NCBI GenBank assembly: GCA_028708815.1
Contig: JAQVYB010000007.1
Coordinates: 1-54,753, forward strand
DNA: 54,753 bases
From: Kiritimatiellia bacterium
Lineage (GTDB): Bacteria > Verrucomicrobiota > Kiritimatiellia > RZYC01
Direction of reading: 5' to 3'
Made by a program: the position numbers and the translations under genes
The notes under the pieces: model-generated
What the model was told of the DNA's origin: nothing
The model's input: only the letters and a program-made list of their open reading frames with translations
The model's database searches: none
Shown: piece after piece, positions 2,166-33,113 of the stretch
Layout of the letters: every line of letters begins with the position of its first letter
Position numbering within the stretch: position 1 is the first letter of the stretch

Positions 2166-5100
2166 TTATCGCACCGGGTAAGCTTCTTCGAACCCCCAGG
2201 GTTGGGTACGCATGGTTTGGGTGGCGCTCTGCCAGATGTACCACATGCCTTCGTTCGGCCAGTAGACTGTGACGTCGAATTTTTCATCGCCATCGTAATC
2301 TGCCGGCACCGGAACAGCCCGGCTCCACCCCCAGCTCTGGGTACATTGCTGTCCGTCCGAACTTTGCAGAATATTCCACCAACCGGGTTCCTCCCAGTAG
2401 ACGGCGATGTCCGTTTTGCCGTCCCCATCAAAGTCACCCTGACAGGCTTGGGCATCAGGCCAGCCCCATGGCTGGATGCGACCGGCATCTGTGGATGATT
2501 GCAGGATATACCATTCGCCGCCTTCCGGCCAGTAGACCGCGCAATCAGTCAACCCATCCCCATCGTAATCACCCGGAGCAGGAACGGCGTCCGGCCATCC
2601 CCAAGCCTCTGTTCGTCCGATACCGGTTGATGATTGCAGGATATGCCATGCACCCGCGGCCGAATCATAAACCGCGACATCGGAGAGCCCGTCACCATCA
2701 TAGTCACCCGGAACGGCCCATGCATTCTCCCACCCCCATGCCTGTTCACGCCCGGTCATGGTTTCACTCTGAAGAATGTACCACATGCCATAGGTTGCAT
2801 TATAAACGGCCACATCATATTTACCGTCCCCATCATAATCTCCGGCAACCGGCGTACTGTTCGCCCAGCCCCAGACCTGCTGATAGAGCGTATTGTCCGA
2901 ACTCTTCAAGATGTTCCACTGCCCGGCTTCCGGCCAAAACACCGTCGCATCGGCTTTGCCATCCCCATCGAAGTCCAGATAGATGGCGGCCTTGGCTACC
3001 ACCACATCCTGAGTGGCCCAGGCTTCATTCCAGTTGGTGTCTCCACCTTGATAGGCTTGAATAACAACCCGTCCTTTCTCCGTAAAGGTCAGATTGGTTC
3101 CGCCGTTGATCGCGCCTGGACCGGAAGCTACGCTGAACATCATGCCCAATCCGCTGGATGCGGTGGCACTCAATCCCACGGTATTCGTCACGCGCTGTTT
3201 TCCAATGGTTGGAAAATCAATGGTCTGATAGGCCCGCGCACAATAAACCTGCGCCGTCACCGCTCTTGCGCCGTACATATCGTCCAGTGCCTTGGTGGCC
3301 ACCACGGTCACCACCCCGGAGCCGGAGTTGATGATCAGGCCATCCACACCAACGATCGCACCCGGACCGCTCCCCACGGCATAACTCACCGCGCCGGTAC
3401 CCGAACCACCCGAAGTGCCCAGCAGATTCGTCGTCCGATACACCTGTGGACTGGGCGGCGTGAAGACCAGCGCGCCCTGCGCTGATTTGTTCACTGTGAT
3501 CGAATTGGTCGCCATCGGGGCGGCATTCCAGTTGGTGTCACCCGGCTGCAAGGCGGCAATCCATACTGTCCCGTCGGACTGATAGCTCAGATTGGTTTGA
3601 TCGCTCAGCGTCGCATTTCCGCTCACCACGGAAAAGCTCACCGGCAGACCGCTGGCAGACGTGGCCGAAAGCCCTGTGGTGTTCGTGCTGTCCTGCGGAT
3701 CGATCTCCGGGAAGTCGATGGTCTGGTTGGCCCTGGCGACCACCAGCGTGCCGGTGGCACCGCCTTGGTACATCACGTTACTGACCGTACCAATCACCGT
3801 GTAACTACCCGCATTCGTCGGAGCGGTCGCGCTGCTGTTGTAGGTGATGTCCACGGTCAGGCCGGTCGGAGATGTGACATATCCGACCGATCTGGCTGAT
3901 CCGTTGTAGGTCTGGGTAAGATTAGTCAGCATCACGGACGCCACAGCCTTGGTTACGGCAAAGGTCTGTGTCATGCTCGCGGCCCCGTACCAGTTGCTGT
4001 CGCCCGCCTGATGCGCCGCGATGGTCACACTCCCCGCTCCACTGAAGACCAGGTTCGTGCAGCCCGTAATCGAGGCGCTTCCGCTTACCACTTCGCACGT
4101 CACCGCCAAACCGGATGAGGCGCTCACCGGCAGGCCCACCTGGTTCGTGGTCTCCTGGGTGCCGGGATTATCAAAGGTGATCGTCTGCACCCCCTGTTCG
4201 ACCTCTAAGGTCACCAAAATCATCTGTGGTGAGTTGGTGGCGACCTGCGAGCTTACGCTGTTGGTTGCATACCAGGTTCCTGCGTTGATGCCGGCCGTAT
4301 GGACGACGGTGGTCCAGGTAGTCATCGCCCCTGTCACAATGGTGCCGCCGGCGCTGTCACTCAGCCATCCGGAGGCCCCGGCGCCATACGACAGACTGTT
4401 GGTATAATCAAATGCGAATATCCCGGTGTTTTTAACGGTCCAGTTTTGAGGCGGTGGATTGGTCCCGGCGTATACGGCATGGAACGTCATGGCCGTTGGA
4501 CTCAGCTCAATGGAACCCGCCGCCGACATCACATTAAGCCAACCGCAATTCGTACTGATACCCACGGAGTTCTCCGCACGCAGGCGATAGGCATAAACCA
4601 CGCCGGGCTCAAGACCCGTAACCAGCATCGTGGTGACATCCCCCAGCAGCAGATTGCTGTAGGCGCCCAGATACCCCGCACTGTTCGTGACATCGAAATA
4701 ATAATTCGTGGCCCCGGTGGACTCTTGCCAGTTTGCATATAACCGGTCGTACATCTGATTGGTGGCCCCGGTGGGTTCCGGTGCGGCTGGTTTGGTCAGG
4801 AAGTAATCGACCGCCGTCACATTTGTTCCGGCACTGTTCACGGCGAATCCACGGTAATAGTTGGTCACGCCGGTCCATAGATTCGAGGCCGTGACGGTGA
4901 AACGACCCGTTCCCCAGGTTCCCGTCTCCGAGTCACGCCTTGCCGTAGCCATATCAAATGTGTTGCTGGTGCCCAGGAACACCCCGCGCTCGGTAATAGA
5001 CGCACCGTTTGTGGCCGTTACCGTGGCTCCGAACAACGCCGTCACACTTTCCACATTCGTGACCGAAGAATCGCTGATCGCCGGGATCACGGCATTCACA

Positions 5101-8100
5101 AGGATTTCATTCGTGACGGTCGACGCCGCATCATAGTTGGCATTTCCAAGCTGATCGGCGGTGACCTTCACGAGTCCTGAACCTGAAAAACTCAGATTGG
5201 TCAGAGAGGTAATAATACCCGGTCCATCCGACACATGATACGTCACCGAATTCCCCGATGCACCTCCGGCGGCCGTAAGGCCGATCGTATTGGTCACATC
5301 CTGCGCGCCGGGAGATGTAAACGTAATCACCTGAACCGCTCGGGCCACAGTCAATGTGACATTATTCACGCCCTGATACATTACCTCGTCAATGGTTCCT
5401 GTGATGGCATAGGTTCCCGCATTGGTCGGAGCCCAGCTATTTCCATCGTAGGTAACGTTCACGGTCTTCCCGGCGGGAAGGGTTGCCGCAGTCACCGTTC
5501 GCGCGGTGCCGTCATACGCCTGATTCAGATTGCTGAAAATCACGGAAGCAACCGCCTTGGTCACCGGGAATGAATTGGTGATTGATTCGGCGGCATAGTA
5601 ATTGAGACTCCCCGACTGATCGGCAGCCACAAACACCGTCCCGTCACCGGTGAAGGTCAGATTCGTATATCCCGTGATTACCGCACTTCCCGAAACCACG
5701 CGGCAGGTCACCGTCAACCCGGAACTCGCCGACACACTTAACCCTACGACATTGGTCGTTTCCTGCGCCCCGGGGGGCGTGAATGTAATCGTCTGAGCCG
5801 CTTGAGCCACCGTTAATGTCGCATTATTCACGCCCTGATACATTACCTCATTAATCGTCCCTGTGATGGCATAGGTTCCCGCATTGGTCGGGGCCCAGCT
5901 ATTTCCATCATAGGTAATATTCACGGTCTTCCCGGCGGGCACAGTTGTCGCGGTTACCGTTCGCGCGGTGCCGGTATAGGTTTGGCTTAAATGGTTGAAT
6001 GACACGGAGGCCACCGCCTTGGTCACGCTGAAAGTGTTGGTCACGGTGGAGGCGGAATTCCAGTTGGCATCGCCTGCCTGGTCCGCCGTAAGCACCACCG
6101 GGCCCTCGCCCGTAAAGGTCAGGTTGGTATAGCCCGAAAGCACCGCATTGCCCGAAACCACAACACAGGTCACCATCATCCCGGACTCGGCCGAATAGGT
6201 TAACACAACCTGATTCGTCGTTTCCTGGGGACCCGGATTCGGGAAGGTAATGGATTGATCACGACGCTCCCCGGTACCTTGCAGATGCAGCACATACGGG
6301 GTATTGGTTCCGTTATTGCCGAGAGTCAGCGTGGCCGCATAAAACGCGACGTTCGTTGGATCAAATACCACGCTGAAATTGCTGGCCGTGCCAACCGCGA
6401 CAGCGGTCGGCATATTCAACACCTGAAAAACGGCCGCACCGCTACCGCCCGTTGCAACCCCGCTGATAACCAGTTCTTCCGTTCCGGCATTGGTGATACG
6501 GAACACATTGGTGACACACTGAGCCCAGCTCATGCTGCCGAAATCAGAACCCTTTTCAGAATCGGCCGCATCCCCATTGGCCATGATCTCTCCATTGGTG
6601 CCAAGCAGCACTAACGAGGAGGCTGTATAGGTGAACGCATTACTGGCCACGGTCATCCCGTAGCTTGTTGAATACACCACTATATCACCCGTCATGCCAT
6701 CGGGGACCGCCTGCACTTGAACAGCAATTTCCGTCGGAGAATGATCGACCAGCAGCGAGGCCTGAATGCCGCAGATCGTGACATTGGTCACGTCGCGTGC
6801 CCCCAGATCGTTTCCATAGATCAGGATCTGTGTTCCCCCGGTATACGAACCACTATTGGGCGAGACCATGCCATCGCCGACATAGGTAGCCTCCAGCACA
6901 TTGGTTCGCACTTCAAGGAGGTCTGTTCCCTGCACCGCATATACCGAATCGTTGATGGAGGCGGCTCCCCCATCATAACTGGCGTAGGTTAATGCTTCCG
7001 AAGCATGCCAGTTTGTTCCGTTATACGACCAGACCGTCTGCTGCGCCACCCCATTTGAACCACCAAGGGCATAAAGAGAATGACCCGAAACAATCCCACG
7101 GACTCCCTGACGAGCCTCTGGCAGTCCTTCCGCGGCATCCCAATGCGTCCCGTCAAAGGCATACACATTCGTAAGACCGCTTCCGCCAAAGGCCATCATG
7201 CGTCCATTAAGCACCGCCACGGCAAGATCCTTCATGCCAACCGGCATCGCCTCAACCTCCACCCATACACTCCCGTTATATCGGTACGCATTACTGCATG
7301 CATCACCGGGTTGACTTCCACCGCCCACGAAGTAGAGATCATTGCTGTAGACCGTCGCAGCACCTGCCAAACGCGCGGAGGGCAAGCCCCGCACCTCGCT
7401 CCAAGACGTCCCGTCAAAACGGTACACATTGGTGCTCCACTGTCCTCCGCTGTTGCGCCCTCCCAGCGAATAGATAGCGTTGCCGTAGGTGCACAGCGCC
7501 TGCTGACTGCGGCTCACCGGCAGACCGGCAACTTCCGTCCAGTGTGCACCATCGAACTGATATACATTGGTGCTGGTTGTGGCGCCATTCACATTTCCGG
7601 GACTTCCACCCACCCAGTAAGCATATGAATTGAGAGAGGCAAACCCGCCTGCGCAGCGCGGCGCCGGCAACCCCGGCACCTCATTCCATCCGGATATAAT
7701 CGGATTTCCGATATAGCCTGCCGGATTCACGGCATAGGCACCCTCCAGCACGGTGGTCCCGACCAGTGGAGAATAAATAACAATATCCCTGGTTCCCGCA
7801 CCGGTCTGTTGCGGCATCTGAATGCGCACCCAGCTTTCTCCCTGATCTTCGATGGTTGCCTCCACGCCGCCCACGGTCACGCTGTTAATATCATTGCTGC
7901 CCAGCGTCCCATTGGAAATCGTCACCTTGTTGCCACCCGCCAAGGGGCCCGTATTGGTGCTCATCGCATAACATGACCCGTAGAGGTTCATTGTAAACGG
8001 AAGATTGGGATCATCTCCGGTAAACAGCAGATAGGCGGAATGATTCCCAGCCATCTCCGGATGATAGGTCACCGTAAAATCAGCCACCCCTTCACCCGGC

Positions 8101-11100
8101 ACCGTCTCAGGCACGCCGCTCACAACAAACGCCGAGGCCCCGGTTCCGTTGGTTGTGCATCCTGAAATCACCAACGCATCATTCCCCGTATTCGTTATGC
8201 TGAAGGTATGGGTAAAATCCATGCTTATCCGGGTGGGTTTAAACGTGGTTCCGTTCGATATTTCAGCGGGAGCTGTCGAGCCTATCAACGCCCCGTTCGT
8301 GCCAATGATATTCATGCCCGCCGCAATGTACGTATACGCATTCGAACGGACCGTCATCCCGTATTCCACGGAATGAATCACCACATTTCCAACCCCGCCG
8401 GAAGCAATTGAACCGGCGGTCACCCAAACCCGCGTGGCGGTTTGAGTCTTGATCGTCGCGGCAACATCAAACAGCGTCACATTCGTAATGTCGTTTCCGT
8501 TCCCCAGATTCAAACCGCTGATGACCACCTCGTAACCGCCCGTCCACGATCCCTGTGGAGGATCGACCGGGATACCCAGCGGTTCGCTACCCCGGATGCG
8601 CATGCAATTCAGCACATTGCAGGGGAACTCATTCGTGCTCCAAAGCGACAGGGTCATGGCTTTATCTGTCGGTGTCACATTGGACCATGTGATATAACGA
8701 TCTCCCCATCCATAGGCATTCGTCACATCCAGTCCATTGCCGCCACCGCCCGCATTTTGCCACGCGCCCGCATTGCACCCCCAATTCGTTCCCGAAGCAT
8801 CTCCGCCGACCCACGGGCCGGCATGCAGAGTCTCATTAAAGGTCATCGATCCGCCATACGAATTGACCACATCCACCTGATAATTGGTTCCGGGCAGATT
8901 GGTCACCGTTACCCAATTGGTGGAAGATAACGAAGTCGACAGGATGAGCCACTGTGCGGCATTGGTGGCAATCCATCCGCTACCTTCTGCCGCGTCATTC
9001 CAGCCACCACGACCATCATTGTTAAAACCGAACGGCTTAATCCAAACCCCGTTTTTGAACGGCACACCCACATTCGTGGAAGCCAGTTCCATCCAGTCAT
9101 TGGTTCGGTTCACATGCGTATATACCGCTTCCCCGTCAGGACAGTGATTGGTGGGATAGGCCACATCACGGTAGACATCAAACGGCCAATTGTTCCCATA
9201 AAAGGAAATGCGATAATCCATGAGGATTGTCGGAACACTGATTTCCCCTGCGGGATTATAGGTATAAGCATTAGCGAGAGGAATCTCACCATGATCGGAC
9301 GTTTGCACCAGCATATCTACCAGACCTGCACCCGTCGCAGGAGGCACGGTAATGATAAACCAATTCACCTCATGTGCTCCGAGCGTGGCCTGCACCCCGT
9401 CCACCAGTACATTCGTAATGGCCCCGAAATCGCCATTGGTCACGGCCAGTGAATTACCCCCGGCATACGGACCCGCATTGGTGGAAACCTGAAAACAGGA
9501 CCCGGCCAGATTCAGTGTGAAGGTGGTATTGGTATCATCACACGTAAACACCACAAAGGCCGTATGATCCCCTGCATCAACCGGCGAATATTCCACCGTA
9601 ATTTCAGCCACCCCATCCACCGCCAGTGTCTCCGGCACCCCGGACACCGTAAACATCGCCGCATCCGCTCCATTCGTCTCACAACCAAGGATCGTCAACA
9701 GGGCGTTCCCGCTGTTCGTTAGGCTAAAAGTGTTCGTGAAAGAATAACCCGAAAGCACCGGATTGAATTTAGTCCCGTTCGTCACGGAAACATCCCCGCC
9801 ACTTTCAATCGCCGCACCATTCGTCCCCAGCAGGATGAATTCAGGACCCAATGCCGAGAAGTCGTTAGTCACCGGCGACGCTGCGTTGAAATCATCGTTT
9901 CCTGTCTGAACGGCCTGCACACTCACGGCGCCGTAACCGTCCATGGTCAATTCATCCCCCGTGACATTTGCAGGACCTGACAGCACCGTGTAACTCACGG
10001 CCAACTCGCTGTCAGAAGTCGCCAACAAAGTCACCGTGTTGGTCCAGAACACATCACTGACAACCGGAAACGTGATGGTCTGATTTGCCTTGGCGCACAC
10101 CACATCGGACGTCGATGCCGTGGACAGAAACAGATCGTCGCCGGATTTTGTGGCCGCCACAACCACGGTGCCGGTGCCCGTTGTAATCGTTAGCATGGTA
10201 TCATCAACGATCGCGCCGCCGCCCGACAATACGGCATAACTAACGAGCCCGGTGCCCGATCCCCCGGAAGAGGTCAGCGCATTCGTGGTCGCATAGGTTT
10301 GCGGCGTGGCGGGCGTAAAGATCAGGGATGCCTGCGGAGTTTTTGCCACCGAGAAGCTCTGTGTAACGGCTGCGGCCGCCGCATAGTTTCCATTACCGGC
10401 CTGCAACGCACGAAGAACCACTTCACCGGAATTGGTATAGGTCAGCGTAATGGGACTGTTCGTGCCCGACAAAACGACCGGACCCGACATTTTCTCGAAG
10501 CTCACCGTCAAGCCACTCGTTGCCGTCGCACTGAGGGGTGTTTCATTGGTCGTCAACTGCGCCCCCGGAGTGTCAAAATCAATCGTCTGTGAAGCCTGTG
10601 CGATAGTCAGTTCGGTGGTGTTGGTTCCGGCCCAGTTCGCCGTATCCACCACCCCGGTCACCGCATAGGAACCGGCGTTGGTCGGCGCCGTGGCGCTTCC
10701 GTCATAGGTCATGGTGATCGGCTGTGCATTCGCACTGTTGCTGGTCACATAGATGGCCGTGCCATCATAGGTTTGATTCGTGTCACTGAAGGTAATGGTA
10801 TCGAGAGCACGCGCAATCATCATCGTATCGGTACTCCCGCCCTGATACATCGCCTCATCGATCAGACTAATCACTTCATACGTTCCCGCATTCGTCGGAC
10901 CGGCCGTCAGATCGTCATACGTAAGATTCACCGTGAGTTCCGGCGGAACGGTCGAAGCCGCCGCCGTCTGCGCACTACCGCTGTAGGTCTTCATCAAATC
11001 CGACAGCGTCACCGCGGCCACGGCTTTGGTCACGTCCAACGTGTTGGTCACGGTCGGCGCGGCATTCCAGTTGCTGTCACCGGCCTGGTCCGCCTTCACC

Positions 11101-14048
11101 AGCACCGGCCCGGAATTGGTAAAGGTTAGATTCGTTCCCCCGCCGATTACACCCGGACCACTCAGCACGGAAAAGGTCACCGCCAAACCCGAATCTGCGG
11201 TGGCAGTCAGACCCACCTTATTCGTCGTTTCCTGTGCGCTGGTGACCGTGAAGTCGATGGTTTGATCCCTTGAAGTGCCCTCGCCACTCAGATTAATCAC
11301 ATACGGGGTATTCGTGCTGTTATTGATAAGGGTCAACACCGCTGCATAACTCGCCGCATTGGTCGGGGCAAACACCACCGTGAAATTACTGACCGTACCT
11401 GCGGCAACTTCAGCGGGTATATTTAACGCTTGAAATACGGCGGGATCGGCACCGCCGGTCGTCACGCCGCTGATGATCAAATCTTCCGCGCCTGCATTGG
11501 TGATGCTTAGCGTATTCGTCACACTCAGCGCCCAACTCATACTGCCGAAATCCGTGCCTTTTGCATCGCTGGCCGCTTCGTCATTGGCAATAACCGCGCC
11601 ATTGGTTCCCAGGATAACCAGTTCCGGCGCATTGTACGTGAACGCATTGCTCTTGAGGGTCGTGCCGTAGCTGGTCGAATAGACCACCACATCACCAAGG
11701 CCTGCCGAACCGGCCTGTCCGGCCCACGCCACAATCTGCGTGGCGGACTGGCTTGCAATATTCGTCACATTCACGCCACACAGCGACACGTTCGTGATAT
11801 CGTTTCCGTAGCCCAGATTCACACCCACGATCGTAATCTGGAATCCGCCGGCGGCGGTTCCGTTAAGCGGACTCACTCCCCCTGTATAGGAAGGATACGT
11901 CAGCACGTTGGTTACGCCGCTTCCGCCGACGTTATCATACCCGCCGACACAATAAACCTGATCATTGAACATGGCTCCCGCCGGGGCATACAGCGTCTGG
12001 GGCAGCCCTTCAATAGCAATCCAATCCGTCCCGTTAAACGTCCAGCAATTCGTGAGATGTCCACCAGCGCCATTGCCACCGATTGAATAAATCAACCCGT
12101 CGTGCACGGTCGATCCCATCGCGCTGCACACCGACGGATAGCCCGTTACTTCCGTCCAGGCAGTCCCATCAAAGGCCCATACATTCGTGTAGGAGCTTGG
12201 ATTATCATAACCGCCCATGGCATAGAGCGTGCCGTTCAATGTTTGAGCCGTCAGAGCCGTGCGGGCACCGGGCAAACCTGACTCCTCGGTCCAGGTACTG
12301 CCGTCAAACGACCACACGTTGGTGATTTCCTCTCCGCCTCCGCCACCGGCGATGCTGTACATCTTCCCATCATATACCGCGCAACCCATTTCATAGACTG
12401 CTACCGGAAGACCCACCGTCTCCGTCCACGCGGAACCATCAAAAGACCACACATTGGTGTGCTGAACCGACGAAGCATCAATCCCGCCAACCACATACAG
12501 CAACCCATCATACACCACACAGCCCATCGCCCGCCGCGCTCCGGGAATGCCGGCCACGGCCGTCCAGATCGCTCCATCAAAACGATAGACATTGGTCGAA
12601 GCCGAACCATCCACGGTTCCCCCCACGGCATAGAGCATTCCATCGTAGGTCACCGCGCCGCCCGAATCCAACACCACCGGCAAGCCGACGGTATCCATCC
12701 ATCCCGCCGCATTGCCAATGAACCCCTTGCTGTTGTAGGTGTAGGCATTCACAAAAGTCGTGTCACCCTGAGAAGTAGACTGCACGACAATGTCCTTCGC
12801 TCCCGCGCTGCCCGCACTCGGAAGCGTAATCGTTACCCAAGTTGCTCCCTGATCAACCCTCGTCGCCAGCATACCACCCACCGTCACATTCGTGATATCC
12901 GTACCATTGCCCAGTGCCACCGCATTGGTAATTGTTAATGTGTTCCCGCCCGCATACGGCCCATTATCTGGACTCAAGATAAACTGTACTTCATATGCAC
13001 CCATATCCACATCGCTGAACGCAATACGCGGATTCCCCGCCAGATCCACAGGGGTAGCGTTCGTCGGCGCATAGGTGTTGTCCCCCGTATTGATGCAGGG
13101 TGAACCGGATTGCAGCGTAAAATCATAGCCCGCCGCATCCGTAAACAATGGATCATTGGTAATCGATCCGGGTTTACTCAGATCATTCCGGCAGCAAAGG
13201 TTATAAACCGTTGTGTTAGGAATATCGGCGCCCTTCACATCCGCCGATGAATTGCTCCAGACAATACAGTTATAGATAGAACCAACTTGGGGGGCGAAGC
13301 CATTCTGGTAAATACCCGCATTCACATTATCGACCACCGTGCAGTTTGCTATGGTTCCCCCCATATGCAGCATCACTCCGCCACCGGCACCAGGGGCCGA
13401 ATTCTCCTCGACAAGGCTGTTATACAGCTGACCACCCAACGCACACATCACTCCGCCGCCGGCAAACGAAGCTTCACAGTTCCTGACAACACACTGATCC
13501 ACCACACAGTTCGTACCCATCCAAACGCCGCCACCGCTCTTATCATGAAAATCATCCCCGCTGGAAGCCGTGTATCCATTGGTCAACGTAAACCCGACCA
13601 ACTGCGCCCCATTGGTCATATAGACACAACGAATCGCATCCGGGCCCGTTCCGCCGCCCGACGCCTCAGCCCCTTCAATAATCGTCACGTCCGGCCCATT
13701 CAACGAACGCACGGTAATCGCATTGGTAATGCAGAAGCGATTGGTCAGAGTCCCGCCCGGCGCCATTAGGCCACCCACATCATACACCCCGTTCGATACC
13801 CAAACCGTATCGCCATCCGCCAGCGATTGATAAGAGTTTTCAATCAACCCTTCCCATGACCCGGCTGCTTGACCCCATGAAGAACCATCCTCATCGTATC
13901 CTTCAGCAATATAGAACTCAGCGGCATACCCCGAAACACCCCATGCCACGACACAGCAAAGCAACCCCAACGAAAAGGCCGTTTTCCAATCATTGGAAAA
14001 ATGAGAATGACCCCGTTTCGCCCCGTTTCGACGCGCCCCTTTATTCAT
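2166..14048 (-). CDS. Giant secreted modular protein: N-terminal beta-helix-like region, IPT/TIG-like, Kelch, MBG-like, choice-of-anchor-D/ASH-like modules, C-terminal FG-GAP/VCBS-like DYDGDG repeats
   Basis: ORF 2166..14072 (3968 aa); signal peptide-like TAFSLGLLCCVVAWGVSGYA; repeated SGPYAGGN, LLGTNGA, QTITF..PGAQETTNxVGL, YDGDGxxDVAVY motifs. Start at 14048 (MNKGARR) preferred. Confidence 0.93.
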   Translation of the reverse strand: MNKGARRNGAKRGHSHFSNDWKTAFSLGLLCCVVAWGVSGYAAEFYIAEGYDEDGSSWGQAAGSWEGLIENSYQSLADGDTVWVSNGVYDVGGLMAPGGTLTNRFCITNAITVRSLNGPDVTIIEGAEASGGGTGPDAIRCVYMTNGAQLVGFTLTNGYTASSGDDFHDKSGGGVWMGTNCVVDQCVVRNCEASFAGGGVMCALGGQLYNSLVEENSAPGAGGGVMLHMGGTIANCTVVDNVNAGIYQNGFAPQVGSIYNCIVWSNSSADVKGADIPNTTVYNLCCRNDLSKPGSITNDPLFTDAAGYDFTLQSGSPCINTGDNTYAPTNATPVDLAGNPRIAFSDVDMGAYEVQFILSPDNGPYAGGNTLTITNAVALGNGTDITNVTVGGMLATRVDQGATWVTITLPSAGSAGAKDIVVQSTSQGDTTFVNAYTYNSKGFIGNAAGWMDTVGLPVVLDSGGAVTYDGMLYAVGGTVDGSASTNVYRFDGAIWTAVAGIPGARRAMGCVVYDGLLYVVGGIDASSVQHTNVWSFDGSAWTETVGLPVAVYEMGCAVYDGKMYSIAGGGGGEEITNVWSFDGSTWTEESGLPGARTALTAQTLNGTLYAMGGYDNPSSYTNVWAFDGTAWTEVTGYPSVCSAMGSTVHDGLIYSIGGNGAGGHLTNCWTFNGTDWIAIEGLPQTLYAPAGAMFNDQVYCVGGYDNVGGSGVTNVLTYPSYTGGVSPLNGTAAGGFQITIVGVNLGYGNDITNVSLCGVNVTNIASQSATQIVAWAGQAGSAGLGDVVVYSTSYGTTLKSNAFTYNAPELVILGTNGAVIANDEAASDAKGTDFGSMSWALSVTNTLSITNAGAEDLIISGVTTGGADPAVFQALNIPAEVAAGTVSNFTVVFAPTNAASYAAVLTLINNSTNTPYVINLSGEGTSRDQTIDFTVTSAQETTNKVGLTATADSGLAVTFSVLSGPGVIGGGTNLTFTNSGPVLVKADQAGDSNWNAAPTVTNTLDVTKAVAAVTLSDLMKTYSGSAQTAAASTVPPELTVNLTYDDLTAGPTNAGTYEVISLIDEAMYQGGSTDTMMIARALDTITFSDTNQTYDGTAIYVTSNSANAQPITMTYDGSATAPTNAGSYAVTGVVDTANWAGTNTTELTIAQASQTIDFDTPGAQLTTNETPLSATATSGLTVSFEKMSGPVVLSGTNSPITLTYTNSGEVVLRALQAGNGNYAAAAAVTQSFSVAKTPQASLIFTPATPQTYATTNALTSSGGSGTGLVSYAVLSGGGAIVDDTMLTITTGTGTVVVAATKSGDDLFLSTASTSDVVCAKANQTITFPVVSDVFWTNTVTLLATSDSELAVSYTVLSGPANVTGDELTMDGYGAVSVQAVQTGNDDFNAASPVTNDFSALGPEFILLGTNGAAIESGGDVSVTNGTKFNPVLSGYSFTNTFSLTNSGNALLTILGCETNGADAAMFTVSGVPETLAVDGVAEITVEYSPVDAGDHTAFVVFTCDDTNTTFTLNLAGSCFQVSTNAGPYAGGNSLAVTNGDFGAITNVLVDGVQATLGAHEVNWFIITVPPATGAGLVDMLVQTSDHGEIPLANAYTYNPAGEISVPTILMDYRISFYGNNWPFDVYRDVAYPTNHCPDGEAVYTHVNRTNDWMELASTNVGVPFKNGVWIKPFGFNNDGRGGWNDAAEGSGWIATNAAQWLILSTSLSSTNWVTVTNLPGTNYQVDVVNSYGGSMTFNETLHAGPWVGGDASGTNWGCNAGAWQNAGGGGNGLDVTNAYGWGDRYITWSNVTPTDKAMTLSLWSTNEFPCNVLNCMRIRGSEPLGIPVDPPQGSWTGGYEVVISGLNLGNGNDITNVTLFDVAATIKTQTATRVWVTAGSIASGGVGNVVIHSVEYGMTVRSNAYTYIAAGMNIIGTNGALIGSTAPAEISNGTTFKPTRISMDFTHTFSITNTGNDALVISGCTTNGTGASAFVVSGVPETVPGEGVADFTVTYHPEMAGNHSAYLLFTGDDPNLPFTMNLYGSCYAMSTNTGPLAGGNKVTISNGTLGSNDINSVTVGGVEATIEDQGESWVRIQMPQQTGAGTRDIVIYSPLVGTTVLEGAYAVNPAGYIGNPIISGWNEVPGLPAPRCAGGFASLNSYAYWVGGSPGNVNGATTSTNVYQFDGAHWTEVAGLPVSRSQQALCTYGNAIYSLGGRNSGGQWSTNVYRFDGTSWSEVRGLPSARLAGAATVYSNDLYFVGGGSQPGDACSNAYRYNGSVWVEVEAMPVGMKDLAVAVLNGRMMAFGGSGLTNVYAFDGTHWDAAEGLPEARQGVRGIVSGHSLYALGGSNGVAQQTVWSYNGTNWHASEALTYASYDGGAASINDSVYAVQGTDLLEVRTNVLEATYVGDGMVSPNSGSYTGGTQILIYGNDLGARDVTNVTICGIQASLLVDHSPTEIAVQVQAVPDGMTGDIVVYSTSYGMTVASNAFTYTASSLVLLGTNGEIMANGDAADSEKGSDFGSMSWAQCVTNVFRITNAGTEELVISGVATGGSGAAVFQVLNMPTAVAVGTASNFSVVFDPTNVAFYAATLTLGNNGTNTPYVLHLQGTGERRDQSITFPNPGPQETTNQVVLTYSAESGMMVTCVVVSGNAVLSGYTNLTFTGEGPVVLTADQAGDANWNSASTVTNTFSVTKAVASVSFNHLSQTYTGTARTVTATTVPAGKTVNITYDGNSWAPTNAGTYAITGTINEVMYQGVNNATLTVAQAAQTITFTPPGAQETTNVVGLSVSASSGLTVTCRVVSGSAVITGYTNLTFTGDGTVFVAADQSGSLNYYAAESITNSFPVTKAVASVIFSNLNQAYDGTARTVTAATLPAGKTVNVTYDGNSWAPTNAGTYAITGTIDEVMYQGVNNVTLTVARAVQVITFTSPGAQDVTNTIGLTAAGGASGNSVTYHVSDGPGIITSLTNLSFSGSGLVKVTADQLGNANYDAASTVTNEILVNAVIPAISDSSVTNVESVTALFGATVTATNGASITERGVFLGTSNTFDMATARRDSETGTWGTGRFTVTASNLWTGVTNYYRGFAVNSAGTNVTAVDYFLTKPAAPEPTGATNQMYDRLYANWQESTGATNYYFDVTNSAGYLGAYSNLLLGDVTTMLVTGLEPGVVYAYRLRAENSVGISTNCGWLNVMSAAGSIELSPTAMTFHAVYAGTNPPPQNWTVKNTGIFAFDYTNSLSYGAGASGWLSDSAGGTIVTGAMTTWTTVVHTAGINAGTWYATNSVSSQVATNSPQMILVTLEVEQGVQTITFDNPGTQETTNQVGLPVSASSGLAVTCEVVSGSASITGCTNLVFSGAGSVTIAAHQAGDSNWYGAASMTQTFAVTKAVASVMLTNLTQTYNGSARSVGYVTSPTGLTVDITYNSSATAPTNAGSYTVIGTVSNVMYQGGATGTLVVARANQTIDFPEIDPQDSTNTTGLSATSASGLPVSFSVVSGNATLSDQTNLSYQSDGTVWIAALQPGDTNWNAAPMATNSITVNKSAQGALVFTPPSPQVYRTTNLLGTSGGSGTGAVSYAVGSGPGAIVGVDGLIINSGSGVVTVVATKALDDMYGARAVTAQVYCARAYQTIDFPTIGKQRVTNTVGLSATASSGLGMMFSVASGPGAINGGTNLTFTEKGRVVIQAYQGGDTNWNEAWATQDVVVAKAAIYLDFDGDGKADATVFWPEAGQWNILKSSDNTLYQQVWGWANSTPVAGDYDGDGKYDVAVYNATYGMWYILQSETMTGREQAWGWENAWAVPGDYDGDGLSDVAVYDSAAGAWHILQSSTGIGRTEAWGWPDAVPAPGDYDGDGLTDCAVYWPEGGEWYILQSSTDAGRIQPWGWPDAQACQGDFDGDGKTDIAVYWEEPGWWNILQSSDGQQCTQSWGWSRAVPVPADYDGDEKFDVTVYWPNEGMWYIWQSATQTMRTQPWGFEEAYPVR
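2169..2992 (-). repeat. Six-copy FG-GAP/VCBS-like repeat (about 46 aa) encoding the C-terminus of giant protein 1
   Basis: Translated units such as GDYDGDGLSDVAVYDSAAGAWHILQSSTGIGRTEAWGWPDAVPAP repeat six times. Confidence 0.85.
13982..14000. repeat. Palindrome TTTTCCAATCATTGGAAAA inside the N-terminal coding region of giant protein 1
   Basis: Perfect apart from the central base; encodes FSNDWK just before the hydrophobic stretch. Confidence 0.95.
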
Positions 14049-14278
14049 AGTCCGCCCCATTTCTCTGCACACATTTCACTCACACGTTAATCAACAAAGG
14101 ATCACCGCAAGAAGGGTAACTTTTCTGCATTTCATGATCAGCCCCCACCTTGTCGACAATCCTTCAAAAGCAAACACACTGCCGAAGGCTGTTACGGTCC
14201 AGCCCCATTTTCAAGCAGAACAGACACAGAACACCTTCCTGCGTTCGAACACCATTCAACGTTATTCAGCCAATACGG

Positions 14279-17200
14279 TTAATTCACCGGTTCTGCTGCT
14301 TCAAAACCCCACGCCTGCGTGCGCGTGGTACTCGAACCACTCTGCCAGATGTACCAGAGGCCAAGCTCGGGTGAGTAGACGGTGCGATCAAAAATTCCAT
14401 CGCCATCGTAATCCGCAGGCACGGGCCAGACCGCACTCCAACCCCAAAGATGCGTGCTTCCGGCCTGCGTGCCCGAGAGCCAGGCATACCACATAGCTTC
14501 CTCCGGCCAGAAGACGGCCACATCGGTCAGACCGTCCCCGTCGTAATCGCCCGGGATCGGTTCGGCACCACTCCAACCCCACGCCTGCGTACGTCCCGTT
14601 TGCGTCGCGCTCTGCCAGATGTACCAAAGGCCGGTCGCGGCATCATAGACGGCCAAGTCGCAAATCCCATCGCCGTCGTAATCACCCGAAACCGGCGTGG
14701 CGCCGCTCCAACCCCACGCCTGCGTACGCCCCGTTTGCGTCGCGCTCTGCCAAATGTACCAGAGGCCGGTCGCGGCATCATAGACGGCCACATCGCAAAG
14801 CCCATCACCGTCGTAATCCGCAGCCACCGCTTCCGCACCCGCCCAACCCCACACCTGAACACGAGACGCCTGCGTCGCGCTCTGCCAAATATACCAGCTG
14901 CCGCCCACCGGATCATACACGGCCACATCGCAAAGCCCGTCGCCATCATAATCGCCCGGCGCAGGCACACAACTCAGCCAGCCCCACGATTGAATACGCT
15001 GCGATGCATCAGAAGACTGAAGCACATACCAGTTTCCCGTCTCCGGCCAGTAGACCGCCACATCCGCTTTGGCGTCCCCGTCGAAATCGAGATAAACCGC
15101 ATTTTTCACCACCCGTACCGTCTGCGTAGTGCAGGCTTCATTCCAGTTCGTATCCCCGGCCTGCCCCGCCGTGACATATACCGTACCCGTCGCCAGCAAG
15201 GTCAGATTCGTCCCCGACACACTGCCCGGGCCACTGGCCACGTCAAACTGAATCGCCAACCCGCTGTTTGCCGTTGCGGAAAGTCCCACCACATTATCAA
15301 CCATCTGAACACCGATTTCCGGGAAGGTGATCGTCTGATTCGCACGCACACAATAGACCACGGCTGTCGCTGCCGTGCCATTATACATCGCATCGGCAGC
15401 TTTGGTCGCCACCACCGTGACCACCCCCGTGCCGGCATTCACCACCAGTCCGTTTCCGCCGGTGATCGCGCCCGGGCCGCTGCTTACGCCGTACGAGACA
15501 ACGCCGGCCCCCGAGCCACCGCTGGTCGTCAAGACATTCGTGGTCAAATACCCCTGTGAACCCGTTGGGCTGAAAACCAGCGCGCTCTGTCCCGCTTTGC
15601 TGACGGACACCGAATTGGTCACCGTGGGCGCGGCGGCATAGTTTCCATCCCCGGCCTGGTTCGCCGACACCAGCACTGTCCCTGCACCCGTAAAGGTTAG
15701 ATTCGTCCCAACCACTGAACCGGGCCCGGACACGCTGAAACTAACCGTTCCGCCCGAGGTTGCAGAAGCCTGCAGACCCACGGACGCGGTCGTGACCTGC
15801 GCAGGAATCTCCGTAAACGATATCGTCTGTCCGGCCTGAGCCACATTCAACGTACTCGTTTTGCCACCCTGGTACATCGTATCATCCACCAAGCCGACCA
15901 CCTGATAACTCCCGGCATTCGTCGGAGCTGCGGCGCTGGTATCATAGGTGATGTTCACGGCTAAACCGGCGGGAGCCGTCACATAACCCACGGACCGGGC
16001 CGTCCCGTTGTAGGTCTGAGCAAGATTCGTCAGGGTTACCGAAGCCACGGCTTTGGAGACCGTGAACATACGAGTCACCGGAACCGCCGCATTGTAGTTG
16101 TCATTGCTGTTTCGACTGGCCGTCACCGAGACATTGCCTGCACCGCTAAAGGTGAGATTGGTATCCCCGGCGATGTCTGCATCACCGGAAACCACCGCGA
16201 AGCTCACCGGCAAGCCGGAATCGGACGTTGCGGCGAGGCCGACATGATTGGTCGTCCATTGATCTCCTGGATTAACAAAGGTAATGGTTTGGTCTGCCTT
16301 TGCCACATTCAGCGTCACCACATAGTTCTGTGGACTGTTCGTGGCATCCGCCGCATAAACATCCACGGTGCAGGTATGCGTTCCGGCACCCACGCCGGAC
16401 AGGTTAATATAATTGGTTACCACCTGTGCAGAATCAACCGCGACCACCGTGGTGGTCGGTTGTACATTCAACCACCCGCTTGCTCCCCCGCTGTACGTAT
16501 ACGCATTGGTATAGGTAAATACGCTTATCCCCACATTGGTGAGCGTTAATGTTTGGGCGACCGGATTGCTGCTGTTATACGTTCCGGAGAACGAAAGCGC
16601 ATTCGTGTTCATGCCGATACCGCCGCCGGTACCCGCGCCCGTCAGGTTCACGACAAACGGGGAACCGGGCCCGTCGTTCGCAAAACGCACCGTCGCATTT
16701 TTCACCCCGCCGCTGTCGGCTTCGAATGCGATTGTGAACGTCTCCACTGCGCCGGCCGCCACCGTAGCCGGTACGCCTTCAACCTCGAACAAGCCGGCGG
16801 ATGCACCCGAGGTGGTCACGCCGGAAATCGTCATGAGGCTTGTGCCGCTATTGGTGATGCTGAAGGTATTCGTCACCGCGCCGCTGCCGGCCGTCATCGC
16901 GCCAAAATCTGTTCCCAACGCCGCATCCGGACTCGCCCCGTTGGTTATGGCCAGACTATTCGTTCCGAACAGTCCCATCATCGGACCGAGCACATTAAAC
17001 GAATTGGTCTTCGTAGCCGCCGCGTTGTAATTGTCATTACCCGCTTGAGAGGCCGTGATAATCACCGGACCAACCCCGTCGAATGTCACGTTGGTGCCGT
17101 CCAGATTGGCCGGGCCGCTCTGCACGGCCAGCGATACAGAAAGACCACTGTCCGCCGAGGCCAAAAGACCCACCGTATTCGACCAGTAGGTGTTTCCGAC

Positions 17201-20200
17201 AGGAGCAAAGATGACGGTCTGATTGGCCTTCAGGATGTCCGCCGACAAACTCGGTTGAGACAGCGCATAATTCGCGGCATCAGCACCACCCAGGGTCATA
17301 TGCGTGGCAACGACAATCCCGGTAGCCGCATCAGCACTGGCAAAGGTGCCGGTTGTTGCATTGTGAAGGCTCACCTCGTCACTACCGATCACGCCGGAAA
17401 GTCCCGCACCCGAAATAATGGCCCCCCTCGTGCCATTATAGATCTTGTTCTGCGCCACCGCGCCTGTCACCACCAGCCCCATGGACGTAATATCCGCCGC
17501 CAGCGAAGGCTGACCGCTCAAGGTGTAATTCGCCCCATCCGCGCCACCAAGACTCATGTAGGATTCCACCGTAAGATTTGTCCCAACCTCTACCTGAGAA
17601 AAGGTGCCGGTCGACGCATTGTCCAGCGTTACCGTATCGCCATCGATAATACCCGAGAGCGAGGCCCCCGATATTGTTGCCGACACCGTACTGTCATAGA
17701 CCTTATCCGCCGCAGTGGCACCGATAACCTCTAATCCTTTCGCCGTAATATCCGCCGACAAAGAAGGCTGACCGCTCAAGGTGTAATTCGCCACATCAGC
17801 ACCGCTGATACTCATAGCGGTCGTTACCCCGATAGAATTACCAATCGTCGCCTGCGCGAATGTGCCGGTCGATGCGTTATCCAACGATACCGCATCGCCA
17901 CTCACCACGCCCGACAAACCCGCTCCCAGTACTGTTGCGGCCATCGACCCATCATAACTCTTGTTCTGTGCCACCGCACCCGTCACCACCAAACTGACCG
18001 GTGTCACCGTGAGCGAATGCGTAACATCCGGGGCCTCAGCCCAGGAAGAAGCGCCCGGCTGCGACGCCACAATGTCACAAACCCCTGTGCCCACAAAATA
18101 GAGAATTGAACCCGCATTGGTACACACCGATTCCTCACTGCTTTGATAATGCACCGTCAATCCGGAACTGGCCGTGGCCCCCGGATTCAAGATCCCGCCA
18201 TACACCTGTGAAGCAGGCGCGGCAAACGTGATGGTCTGCAACTTTTTCTGCAGTTCATAGGCACCCATATCCACCACACTATCGTAAATACGCGTATTTC
18301 CCGCGAGATCCGTGCTCACCGTATTGGTCGGCGCATAGGCATTGTTTCCCTGATTCACGCACGGCGAAAGATCCTGCAACCGATAATTTCCAATCGAAGG
18401 ACCGATGAAGAGCGGATTCACATTGGTCAAACACGCCTCCCCGCCCGTCCAGCCATTCGTGCTCTCCTGAGACGCACAGGTATACCGCACCACACAACCC
18501 GTACCGGACATATAAATATCCTGTTCGCCATAGCCTGTGATATTCGTCCACACAATACAATTATTCAGGGTGCCGCCCTCACTCATCAACACACCACCGC
18601 CCCAATAAGAAACAGAATTTCCTGAAATAGTCGTATTGTTCACTTCTCCACCCTTGTAACAATACACGCCGCCGCCACCAGCCTGCGACTCATTATCCAC
18701 CACCAAACAGTTGTTCAGCGTGCCGCCGCTATTCATATAAACACCGCCGCCTAGACCGGACGACGAGTGCAATGCCGCATTATTGCGAATCAAACAGTTA
18801 TTCATTACGCCGGAATCGTAAAGGCCCGCACCACCACCATAACTGGCAACGGACGTGTTACCCACAATCATGCAGTCCTCGACAGTACCTCCGATATACA
18901 GATAAAGCCCCCCCGCCTGATTACGCGCGGTATTCCCCGAAATGACACAGTTCGAAACCGTACAATTGGCTCCAAGCCAAAGACCTGCACCGTTCACATC
19001 ATAATGCGAATTGCCAGAGAAAACCGTATACCCATTCGTCACCGTGAACCCCGAAATCAGTACCGATCCACTGCTGATCTTCGCATAAACCCCGCGAATC
19101 GAATCCGTATCATTCGATCCATTCGACCCCGGCGCACCTACAATTTTTGTCACCGACGGACCATTCACCGAACGAAGCGTGAGCGCCTTAGAAATGGTCA
19201 CTCGATTGGTGGCCGAAAAACCCGGCGTAACCGAACTACCCGCGTCATACGTACCATTCGTTACCACCACCGTGCCCCCCGTCGCCACCAGGTCAACCGA
19301 CGCTTGCAACGTACGCAGCGCCAGGGCCCAGCTCGCCCCACTATACGAATCGCTTCCGTGGTTGGCGTCCACATAAACAGTTAACGGTTGATTATAAGAA
19401 TATACACCATCGAAAACAGTGTCCCCCAACGAAGCAGACTGCACCGTAATATCCTGTGCCCCCATCCCTGATGCCGCCGGCATCCTCATCGCCAGCCAAT
19501 TGGTGCCCTGCACGATAATATTCGTAGTCGAAGAACCGCCGACGATTACATTGGTAACATCCTCGGCGCCAAAATTCGCCGTACAGTTCGTTAACACCAC
19601 AAGATTGCCGCCCGCATACACCCCACTCGAAGGATTTACCGTCACCGTAGCCGTTTCATACGCCCCCATATCCACCGTCGTATTCATGATGCGCGGATGT
19701 CCCGCCAGATCATCCGGCACAAAATTCGTCGGCGCATACGTGTTGTTCCCCGTGTTGTAACAAGGCGATGTCGTACGCAACACATACGTCCCGCCGGCAT
19801 AGTCCACGAACAGAGGATCTTCATTGGTTACACACCCCACCGTGCCCGTCCATTGCGAGGGCGACGCCGCCGAAGCGCTGGAATATCGGATCAGCGACGA
19901 AGCCGACGACGCATGCAAATCATTCCCCGCAGTACTCGCCGAATTGCTCCAGCAAATACTGTTATTCAGTTCAGCGACGTTCTGCATCGCCACGCCGCCT
20001 CCATATTGCGCCTGATTGCCCACTGCGGTCAGATTGGCACCCACCGCGTTATTCCTCAGATAGAATCCGCCACCATACGAAGAAGCCGTATTCCCAATCG
20101 CCAGCGAATTATGCACAAAGCCCTCGCCGTTGATTTCCAGCCCCGCCCCGCTATCCGCCATGTTCTCGCGGAATAGACAATGATTAATCTCAGCCCAAAA

Positions 20201-20857
20201 AAAGGAATTCCCCGCCGCATACATCCCCCCGCCGCCATCCTCCTCCGCTTCATTCCCGCTTATCTCGCAATACGAGACAGAGCCCGTTGAAGCCGAACCC
20301 GATTCATGGTAATAAATACCGCCGCCGGCCCCATACGCCCAGTTACCACTCACAATACAGTTCGACACCACGCAGTTGTCCGACATCCAGACACCGCCAC
20401 CGCACGCATCCAGAAGCGGGGCCACCATCTCCCATGCGTTCGACATGGTCACCCCGTTGGTCACCGTAAAACCAATCAACTGCGCACCATTCGTCAGAAA
20501 CACCCCGCCGCACGCACCCCAGCCGGCATTGGGTTCTCCTGAAATAATGGTGACCTCGGGACCGTTCAGCGATTGAATCGTAATCGGACGGGTCGCTACC
20601 ACTCGCGCACCATAACCACCACCCGAAGGGGCCCCGCCCGGAATCGGACGCGGCGCACCTACATTGTAAATCCCGTTCGTCACCAAAACCGTATCGCCCG
20701 ACGCAGCCTTGAACTCCACCGGGTAATAGATGTATTTAAATGCCGTCGCCCAGTTCGTGCCCGCATTCAGATTGTTCCCATTAACCCCATCCACATACCA
20801 CGTAGCCGCCGATGCCCCGCAAGCCAAACCCATTAACAGGATTCCCATGACCAGCAT
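14279..20857 (-). CDS. Giant secreted modular protein 2: beta-helix-like repeats, MBG-like/HYDIN-like modules and C-terminal FG-GAP/VCBS-like repeats; paralog of giant protein 1
   Basis: ORF 14279..20989 (2236 aa). Start at 20857 (MLVMGILLMGLACGASAATWYVDG) gives a compact signal peptide; 20887 and 20989 are alternatives. Confidence 0.92.
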   Translation of the reverse strand: MLVMGILLMGLACGASAATWYVDGVNGNNLNAGTNWATAFKYIYYPVEFKAASGDTVLVTNGIYNVGAPRPIPGGAPSGGGYGARVVATRPITIQSLNGPEVTIISGEPNAGWGACGGVFLTNGAQLIGFTVTNGVTMSNAWEMVAPLLDACGGGVWMSDNCVVSNCIVSGNWAYGAGGGIYYHESGSASTGSVSYCEISGNEAEEDGGGGMYAAGNSFFWAEINHCLFRENMADSGAGLEINGEGFVHNSLAIGNTASSYGGGFYLRNNAVGANLTAVGNQAQYGGGVAMQNVAELNNSICWSNSASTAGNDLHASSASSLIRYSSASAASPSQWTGTVGCVTNEDPLFVDYAGGTYVLRTTSPCYNTGNNTYAPTNFVPDDLAGHPRIMNTTVDMGAYETATVTVNPSSGVYAGGNLVVLTNCTANFGAEDVTNVIVGGSSTTNIIVQGTNWLAMRMPAASGMGAQDITVQSASLGDTVFDGVYSYNQPLTVYVDANHGSDSYSGASWALALRTLQASVDLVATGGTVVVTNGTYDAGSSVTPGFSATNRVTISKALTLRSVNGPSVTKIVGAPGSNGSNDTDSIRGVYAKISSGSVLISGFTVTNGYTVFSGNSHYDVNGAGLWLGANCTVSNCVISGNTARNQAGGLYLYIGGTVEDCMIVGNTSVASYGGGAGLYDSGVMNNCLIRNNAALHSSSGLGGGVYMNSGGTLNNCLVVDNESQAGGGGVYCYKGGEVNNTTISGNSVSYWGGGVLMSEGGTLNNCIVWTNITGYGEQDIYMSGTGCVVRYTCASQESTNGWTGGEACLTNVNPLFIGPSIGNYRLQDLSPCVNQGNNAYAPTNTVSTDLAGNTRIYDSVVDMGAYELQKKLQTITFAAPASQVYGGILNPGATASSGLTVHYQSSEESVCTNAGSILYFVGTGVCDIVASQPGASSWAEAPDVTHSLTVTPVSLVVTGAVAQNKSYDGSMAATVLGAGLSGVVSGDAVSLDNASTGTFAQATIGNSIGVTTAMSISGADVANYTLSGQPSLSADITAKGLEVIGATAADKVYDSTVSATISGASLSGIIDGDTVTLDNASTGTFSQVEVGTNLTVESYMSLGGADGANYTLSGQPSLAADITSMGLVVTGAVAQNKIYNGTRGAIISGAGLSGVIGSDEVSLHNATTGTFASADAATGIVVATHMTLGGADAANYALSQPSLSADILKANQTVIFAPVGNTYWSNTVGLLASADSGLSVSLAVQSGPANLDGTNVTFDGVGPVIITASQAGNDNYNAAATKTNSFNVLGPMMGLFGTNSLAITNGASPDAALGTDFGAMTAGSGAVTNTFSITNSGTSLMTISGVTTSGASAGLFEVEGVPATVAAGAVETFTIAFEADSGGVKNATVRFANDGPGSPFVVNLTGAGTGGGIGMNTNALSFSGTYNSSNPVAQTLTLTNVGISVFTYTNAYTYSGGASGWLNVQPTTTVVAVDSAQVVTNYINLSGVGAGTHTCTVDVYAADATNSPQNYVVTLNVAKADQTITFVNPGDQWTTNHVGLAATSDSGLPVSFAVVSGDADIAGDTNLTFSGAGNVSVTASRNSNDNYNAAVPVTRMFTVSKAVASVTLTNLAQTYNGTARSVGYVTAPAGLAVNITYDTSAAAPTNAGSYQVVGLVDDTMYQGGKTSTLNVAQAGQTISFTEIPAQVTTASVGLQASATSGGTVSFSVSGPGSVVGTNLTFTGAGTVLVSANQAGDGNYAAAPTVTNSVSVSKAGQSALVFSPTGSQGYLTTNVLTTSGGSGAGVVSYGVSSGPGAITGGNGLVVNAGTGVVTVVATKAADAMYNGTAATAVVYCVRANQTITFPEIGVQMVDNVVGLSATANSGLAIQFDVASGPGSVSGTNLTLLATGTVYVTAGQAGDTNWNEACTTQTVRVVKNAVYLDFDGDAKADVAVYWPETGNWYVLQSSDASQRIQSWGWLSCVPAPGDYDGDGLCDVAVYDPVGGSWYIWQSATQASRVQVWGWAGAEAVAADYDGDGLCDVAVYDAATGLWYIWQSATQTGRTQAWGWSGATPVSGDYDGDGICDLAVYDAATGLWYIWQSATQTGRTQAWGWSGAEPIPGDYDGDGLTDVAVFWPEEAMWYAWLSGTQAGSTHLWGWSAVWPVPADYDGDGIFDRTVYSPELGLWYIWQSGSSTTRTQAWGFEAAEPVN
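14282..15100 (-). repeat. Six-copy FG-GAP/VCBS-like repeat, about 138 bp per unit, with central copies nearly identical at DNA level
   Basis: ctccaaccccacgcctgcgtacg.cccgtttgcgtcgcgctctgcca.atgtacca.aggccggtcgcggcatcatagacggcca occurs twice, nearly identical, at about 14570 and 14708. Confidence 0.88.
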
Positions 20858-20860
20858 CCT

Positions 20861-20941
20861 TTTTCCAATGACTGGAAAAACTTTCATTCTATTTTCCAAT
20901 GATTGGAAAATGGACCAGCCGTTTTTCCAATCATTGGAAAA
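20861..20941. repeat. Triplet of 19-bp palindromes (TTTTCCAATGATTGGAAAA family) with exact 31-bp periodicity
   Basis: 20861..20879, 20892..20910 and 20923..20941; centres 20870, 20901 and 20932. The first has one mismatched position (ATGACTGG). Confidence 0.96.
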
Positions 20942-21437
20942 TAATGTTGAACCCCCAATATTCCTACCGACTCGCTGCTTTGCTTTCATGGGCCCCCGTA
21001 TCTTATAGGATTATCATATACTCATGTTTGCTCGTTCGCTCGTTGTGCTTCAGAGCCTTCTCAGCTTAAAAAGCGATGGGCCCATTGTCCATAGTTATAT
21101 GCACCTTCTGACGCGCGAAGAAAAACAGGCAGGAGACGCCTTCATTAGAGTCCGGCATAACAGCACGCAACACGGCTTTGTTCCAACCGAACAACGACAC
21201 ATAGATACGGTCGAGTCACGGCCTGCCACAACAAATCGCAGAGACTCCCACAGGGCGCGAACCGCCAGGCTATGTCCGTGGCATCATCCCGGCAACGCTT
21301 CATGTGGACGCTCGCCCTGCATTATTGCAGGACGGAGCGGTCAGCGGACGGGGTGTGGTTCCCCGGCTGTGGGTGCATCGGCGGCACAACTCAAAAAGAC
21401 CGAAGCCGCCAAGCGGCAGGTCATCCCCGCTGACCGG

Positions 21438-32666: not shown

Positions 32667-33113
32667 TCATTCCCCCAAATATTTCTCATCATATTTCAAC
32701 TCATGCGCATCCAAAAACGACTTGAACTCCTCCATAAACGATTTCGTACTGTGATGCTCGACCTGATTCCGAATATATTCCCTGACCTTTGGAACCATGG
32801 ACTGACTTACGCTGAAAGAGGCATATTTATTTTGCCACGAAAAATATCCCGTGATTTTTTTATTCTCATTGATCCATCGCGTACTCGCGCTCTTCATTTC
32901 CCACACCAAATCCGCTACGGATATACTCTGATGAATCATGACCAGAATGTGTACATGATCGAAAGCGCCCCCGATTTCAATCGATTGGCTGTTTTTCTCC
33001 CGAATGATTCCACCCAGGTAGGCATACAAATCATTCCGAATGATGGATGTGATCAAAGGCTCTCGGTTTTTTGTTGAAAAGATCATGTGATGAATATTTT
33101 TAATATAGCTCAT
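32667..33113 (-). mobile_element. IS200-like / REP-associated tyrosine transposase (RAYT)
   Basis: MSYIKNIHHMIFSTKNREPLI...GGAFDHVHILVMIHQSISVADLVWEMKSASTRWINE; HVH motif of Y1 transposases; terminal region REYIRNQVEHH. Confidence 0.9.

Follow-up and report, generated by a model that had tools for sequence, protein, structure and literature searches.

Helically phased palindrome arrays in Kiritimatiellae as putative binding sites of a dimeric DNA-binding protein

The window, a stretch of 54,753 nucleotides analysed at its full length, is one entire contig of a source genome of 4.02 Mb in 272 contigs. It carries a triplet of palindromes at 20861-20879 (TTTTCCAATGACTGGAAAA, centre 20870), 20892-20910 (TTTTCCAATGATTGGAAAA, centre 20901) and 20923-20941 (TTTTCCAATCATTGGAAAA, centre 20932), and a second array with a left palindrome at 1878-1896 (GTTTCCAATGATTGGAACT, centre 1887) and a right one at 1909-1927 (GTTTCCAATCATTGGAAAA, centre 1918). 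The original prediction had described both arrays with these centres, in steps of 31 bp, and their coordinates were re-found exactly. Two additional sites had been overlooked, namely a lone exact palindrome at 13982-14000 and a lone palindrome with one mismatch at 3198-3216 (TTTTCCAATGGTTGGAAAA), which lies within giant-protein coding region. With up to three mismatches allowed, the window contains seven sites compared to 0.04 expected from dinucleotide shuffles; a search against Rfam revealed no family match within the window.

The triplet is located at the 5' end of a minus-strand gene (14279-20989) encoding a giant secreted repeat protein with YDG, MBG and FG-GAP domains. A second giant secreted protein with MBG, HYDIN-like Ig, Kelch and FG-GAP domains is encoded on the same strand at 2166-14049, where the start codon is presumed, and carries the palindrome at 13982 near its 5' end. 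The two proteins (2166-20989, minus strand) would comprise about 3,960 and 2,190-2,236 aa, and their MBG, YDG, Kelch, HYDIN-like Ig and FG-GAP domains are arranged in tandem. Translation of the 14279-20989 protein may begin at ATG 20857, which would leave the triplet just upstream, or at ATG 20989, in which case the triplet is in frame and reads FSNDWK / FQSLE / FPVIGK. Given an ATG start at 14049, the site at 13982-14000 is part of the probable N-terminal coding region and reads FSNDWK in the n-region of a plausible signal peptide. Between 13982 and 20989 (minus strand), the palindromes stay open in frame with an upstream ATG, and start codons close to arrays are probably often mis-annotated, giving rise to spurious N-terminal extensions. 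The pair at 1878-1927 lies in the gap between two convergent predicted ORFs, one of which ends at 1677 (plus strand) and the other at 2166 (minus strand). The window also harbours a gene with a Y1-transposase domain (32763-33092, minus strand; PF01797), the best such match of its own genome. At least 82 Y1/RAYT-type transposase matches were counted in G002, a genome of the window's family, compared to 0-21 in the other genomes searched.

The genome-wide motif search suggested in the original prediction, performed with TTCCAATSATTGGAA, revealed 193 exact sites in the window's own genome and 366 with at most one mismatch, and none for the reversed-pattern control. The sites form arrays of one to six members, mostly spaced by exactly 31 bp. 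The histogram of centre distances, also suggested there, covered 524 kb (the window and stretches around listed site clusters) and peaked at 31 bp (86 pairs), followed by 62 (50), 93 (24) and 124 bp (8); rarer distances of 41, 52, 72, 83 and 104 bp were multiples of ~10.4 bp. Two further details of the prediction applied to the window more than to the genome. A central TCA in the rightmost copy and TGA in the left copies is seen in both window arrays, but genome-wide, neighbouring centres mostly share the same orientation (41 versus 21 expected) and are less often reverse complements (6 versus 18 expected). Similarly, spacers are unlike each other in the triplet, but adjacent spacers across the own genome are 66% identical compared to 42% for random ones, indicating that the 31-bp unit was duplicated in tandem in some arrays, which accounts for part of the spacing in this genome.

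In the two closest genomes, 253 and 278 exact sites were found. Searching the class for TTCCA-N5-TGGAA pairs with centres 29-35 bp apart identified such pairs in 98 of 347 genomes, most of them draft MAGs, with a maximum of 1,362 pairs in G094 and with 748 in G008; these exact-pattern counts underestimate degenerate sites. The reversed-pattern control was zero in every listed genome for TTCCA patterns. In a phylum sample of about 257 genomes outside the class, one had any pairs (three), and named records with related sites, among the matches listed, were mostly Kiritimatiellae, Lentisphaerae, Spartobacteria or uncultured. When genomes that seemed negative were scanned de novo, a TTCCG-N5-CGGAA pair emerged in family f18. 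With the relaxed pattern TTCC-N7-GGAA, each of the six f18 genomes tested had 41-188 pairs, and representatives of f36, f37, f10, f2, f25 and others had none or one to two. Judged from these sequence comparisons, the general motif is TTCCA-N5-TGGAA with a lineage-specific centre, and TTCCG-N5-CGGAA in one family. The centre is ATSAT in the window's own family, AGSCT in f7 and of YRNYR type in part of f26, and it shifts in concert within each genome; lineage-specific variants of centre and arm are expected when a trans-acting factor changes its specificity. Copy number varies up to about 100-fold inside one genus.

The phasing of the sites was analysed in 16 data sets, which together gave 588 distances between adjacent sites in the range 15-110 bp. 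All of them were found at 20-22, 29-33, 41-42, 52, 62-65, 75-76, 81-83 or 94-97 bp, corresponding to whole helical turns, and 20-22 and 29-33 bp dominated. The favoured step depends on the genome: it is 31 or 32 bp in some, and others combine 20 with 31 or 22 with 30 bp. Adjacent spacers in G094, with its 1,362 pairs, were 45% alike compared to 41% for random spacers, and the spacing was nonetheless fixed, indicating that it is not simply inherited through duplication. Spacer edges are A/T-rich and the middle is G+C-richer, except in the small G002 sample, and a 10.3-bp A/T periodicity within the unit was no stronger than other harmonics. A single-strand or cruciform hairpin was considered and rejected, as spacer halves were less complementary than expected (z -6.5 in the own genome, -4.9 in G094).

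Because two low-copy matches fell upstream of pheS, this gene was picked for testing. An array was present upstream of pheS in 17 of 26 evaluable genomes versus about 1.4 expected, and in 15 of 24 versus about 1.3 after removal of the two genomes that had prompted the test, with the expectation assuming about 900 genes per Mb and each pair counted as one array. The array position at pheS is retained across families, and the upstream neighbour gene as well as the number, centre and spacing of sites vary between genomes. Many of these arrays end 1-35 nt before the start codon, in some genomes with a recognisable promoter on their upstream side. Several genomes share a GTGACA...TATAAA-like promoter ahead of pheS (loci L215, L216, L219 and L230); relative to this promoter, the array is downstream in some genomes, and it is upstream in the window's genome. 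The possibility that a pheST-ihfA operon hints at the binder was discarded, as no ihfA followed pheT in any locus read.

Comparison of four orthologous array pairs showed that the arms were identical at 130 of 130 positions, compared to 559 of 789 (71%) in the flanks (Fisher p = 3e-18), with 56 of 65 centre and 112 of 126 spacer positions identical in the same pairs. Three pairs of G024/G076 and G078/G079 keep their architecture, with spacings of 32, of 31-31 and of 22-30-22-31-31. In G024/G076, the centre of two sites is exactly swapped for its reverse complement (ATGTT/AACAT), which would be expected of a dimer indifferent to site orientation. Two of three centres are inverted between the orthologous pheS arrays L304 (10423-10499) and L222 (2529-2605) of two species of one genus, and the arms are unchanged where the 5-bp centres are inverted, which suggests palindrome-mediated centre inversion in these arrays.

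To place the arrays relative to genes, we used gene calls from a simple codon-usage script, individual cases of which may be wrong. In 111 kb of G094 chosen regardless of sites, 31 of 32 arrays were intergenic, and with gaps of at least 60 bp counted, arrays occupied 6 of 8 convergent, 7 of 11 divergent and 10 of 25 tandem gaps. The corresponding numbers for 320 kb of G008 were 9 of 22, 10 of 32 and 18 of 67. Convergent arrays in G094 are located between two stop codons, about 30 bp from each, and divergent ones about 95 bp from each start. One convergent array pair (L051) has Pfam-supported genes on both sides, encoding CinA and an aspartyl protease. Genes beside arrays are functionally mixed, and the sampled genomes overlapped too little to reveal common flanking genes. 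As convergent, divergent and tandem gaps are occupied alike, the arrays are not simply promoter operators or terminators. The association with gene 5' ends raised in the original prediction therefore holds in part only, since convergent gaps are occupied as often as others.

Invariant half-sites, a concerted centre, strict phasing and independence of orientation fit a dimer that binds cooperatively on one face of the DNA. We therefore consider it likely that the palindromes are binding arrays of a dimeric, sequence-specific Kiritimatiellae protein, a global regulator of nucleoid-organising character. Each 15-bp site (TTCC-N7-GGAA, with arms usually TTCCA/TGGAA) would take one dimer, and sites spaced by two or three turns, and less often by four to nine, would place neighbouring dimers on a shared DNA face, where adjacent dimers could touch and the DNA is probably bent or wrapped. 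Tens to more than 1,000 arrays per genome (about one per 3.5 kb in the densest genome), occurring in every type of gap, would point to a global, nucleoid-organising regulator and not to a dedicated operator-binder. At genes such as pheS, the array kept beside the start codon would probably tune transcription. The idea of a cooperative protein on one helix face, already voiced in the original prediction, is thus well supported by the 588 turn-quantised distances, the invariant arms and the concerted centres; the copy-number variation of up to ~100-fold in a genus is a counterpoint, being odd for an essential architectural system. A bolder version, to which we give limited credence, is that a DNA-wrapping protein on the phased arrays between transcription units forms a chromatin-like boundary system specific to the class, which would insulate genes or isolate them topologically whatever their orientation.

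That the arrays serve solely as promoter operators of the classical kind, bound by a global transcription factor, is unlikely. This explanation agrees with the pheS arrays ending 1-35 nt before the start and with the window triplet at a gene 5' end, but the depletion in convergent gaps that would characterise promoter operators is absent in the G094 and G008 samples: convergent gaps are filled no less often than divergent ones (6/8 versus 7/11 and 9/22 versus 10/32, respectively), and the convergent arrays in G094 sit between two stop codons. Spread by RAYT transposases as REP/BIME/REPIN-like extragenic palindromes that are tolerated between genes seems more improbable still. Y1/RAYT proteins are as common in array-free genomes (14 in G039, 10 in G043) as in array-rich ones (4 in G094, 2 in G008), an array is nearby at only 2 of 30 RAYT loci, position and architecture are kept in orthologs while flanks diverge, and the spacing is helically quantised with non-complementary spacer halves. 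Inverted pairs forming an extended hairpin, a REPIN trait, were not found in the arrays. In favour of this origin are the high copy number, the location between genes, the variable copy number within genera and the tandem duplication in the own genome. A small element spreading in fixed geometry, the other option of the original prediction, is not supported as the main explanation in view of the missing RAYT link, the pheS position and the kept ortholog architecture, although 31-bp tandem duplication does contribute in the own genome.

RNA-level elements, either terminators or hairpins in 3' or 5' UTRs, would account for the strong predicted RNA folding (z -8.4 for the triplet, -7.0 for the pair) and for convergent placement close to stop codons. 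We regard them as highly improbable, because such folding follows trivially from any two palindrome copies and a lone site is weak (-4.9 kcal/mol). Moreover, spacer halves lack co-variation, neighbouring centres have no clear preference for reverse complements (not beyond about 2 sd), divergent gaps often hold arrays, about 100 bp from both starts, and an RNA function would give no reason for helical phasing. If the arrays are bound by a protein, an AbrB-type (swapped-hairpin) global regulator is scarcely credible as the binder: its in-vitro consensus is reportedly TGGNA-N5-TGGNA and would resemble the arm TGGAA, but the AbrB/MazE domain family PF04014 is missing from 14 of 48 array-positive genomes.

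For the dimeric protein proposed here, the leading candidate, which we name tentatively, is the class's Lrp/AsnC-type protein. The own genome encodes one full-length Lrp-type protein with HTH_AsnC and AsnC ligand-binding domains, located at about 5.1-5.6 kb of C185, whose closest solved structure is FL11. The family is present in 48 of 48 array-positive and 23 of 32 array-negative genomes, and all nine Lrp-less genomes are array-free (p = 1e-4, uncorrected for phylogeny). The Lrp-type proteins of the 23 array-free genomes have a similar helix with no clear difference, and co-variation of the Lrp recognition helix with the site gave no clear signal. Among about 34 Lrp loci of array-positive genomes, an array was found near the Lrp gene in only 2, indicating no general autoregulation, and low-copy genomes, compared with the aim of finding the cognate regulator gene, had no gene in common. 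Because Lrp with a like helix occurs in array-free genomes and few arrays lie at its gene, we describe the arrays as Lrp-like in their working and do not file them as Lrp sites.

In many uncultured Kiritimatiellae, the arrays look like landing sites spread over the whole genome for a candidate DNA-binding protein, a system that seems to be undescribed, and the open-access literature searched contained no relevant report on the motif or on Kiritimatiellae repeats. If true, few known bacterial systems of sequence-specific binding would match its density, and it can be recognised from sequence alone. Its built-in phasing, together with the naturally occurring variation of the sites, their spacing and their copy number among many genomes, would open three questions to direct testing: in what way nucleoid proteins exploit phased sites that are bound cooperatively, how the specificity of a global regulator changes jointly with that of hundreds of its sites, and whether bacteria mark transcription-unit boundaries.

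Among known systems, phased Fis sites (E. coli rrnB P1) and paired NtrC enhancer sites also place dimers about three turns apart on one face, but these are promoter-specific, do not occur genome-wide in convergent gaps and differ in sequence. REP/BIME/REPIN elements are likewise short high-copy palindromes between genes, whereas the Kiritimatiellae arrays have no RAYT link and no hairpin co-variation and are phased and orthologously conserved. Lrp-family sites lie on one face of the helix, two or three turns apart (PMC2995911), and Ss-LrpB of Sulfolobus binds a 15-bp palindromic site (TTGCAAAATTTGCAA) with three dimers on juxtaposed sites and wrapped DNA, its binding regions in vivo being mostly intergenic and many of them far from promoters (PMC4046817). 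In contrast to the 37 ChIP peaks, degenerate sites and autoregulation of Ss-LrpB, dozens to more than 1,300 near-perfect pairs per genome are found here, with no consistent array at the Lrp gene. With clustered palindromic sites of about 15 bp, here TTCC-N7-GGAA, and two- or three-turn centre spacing, here dominated by 20-22 and 29-33 bp, Lrp/AsnC (feast/famine) operator arrays are the closest precedent.
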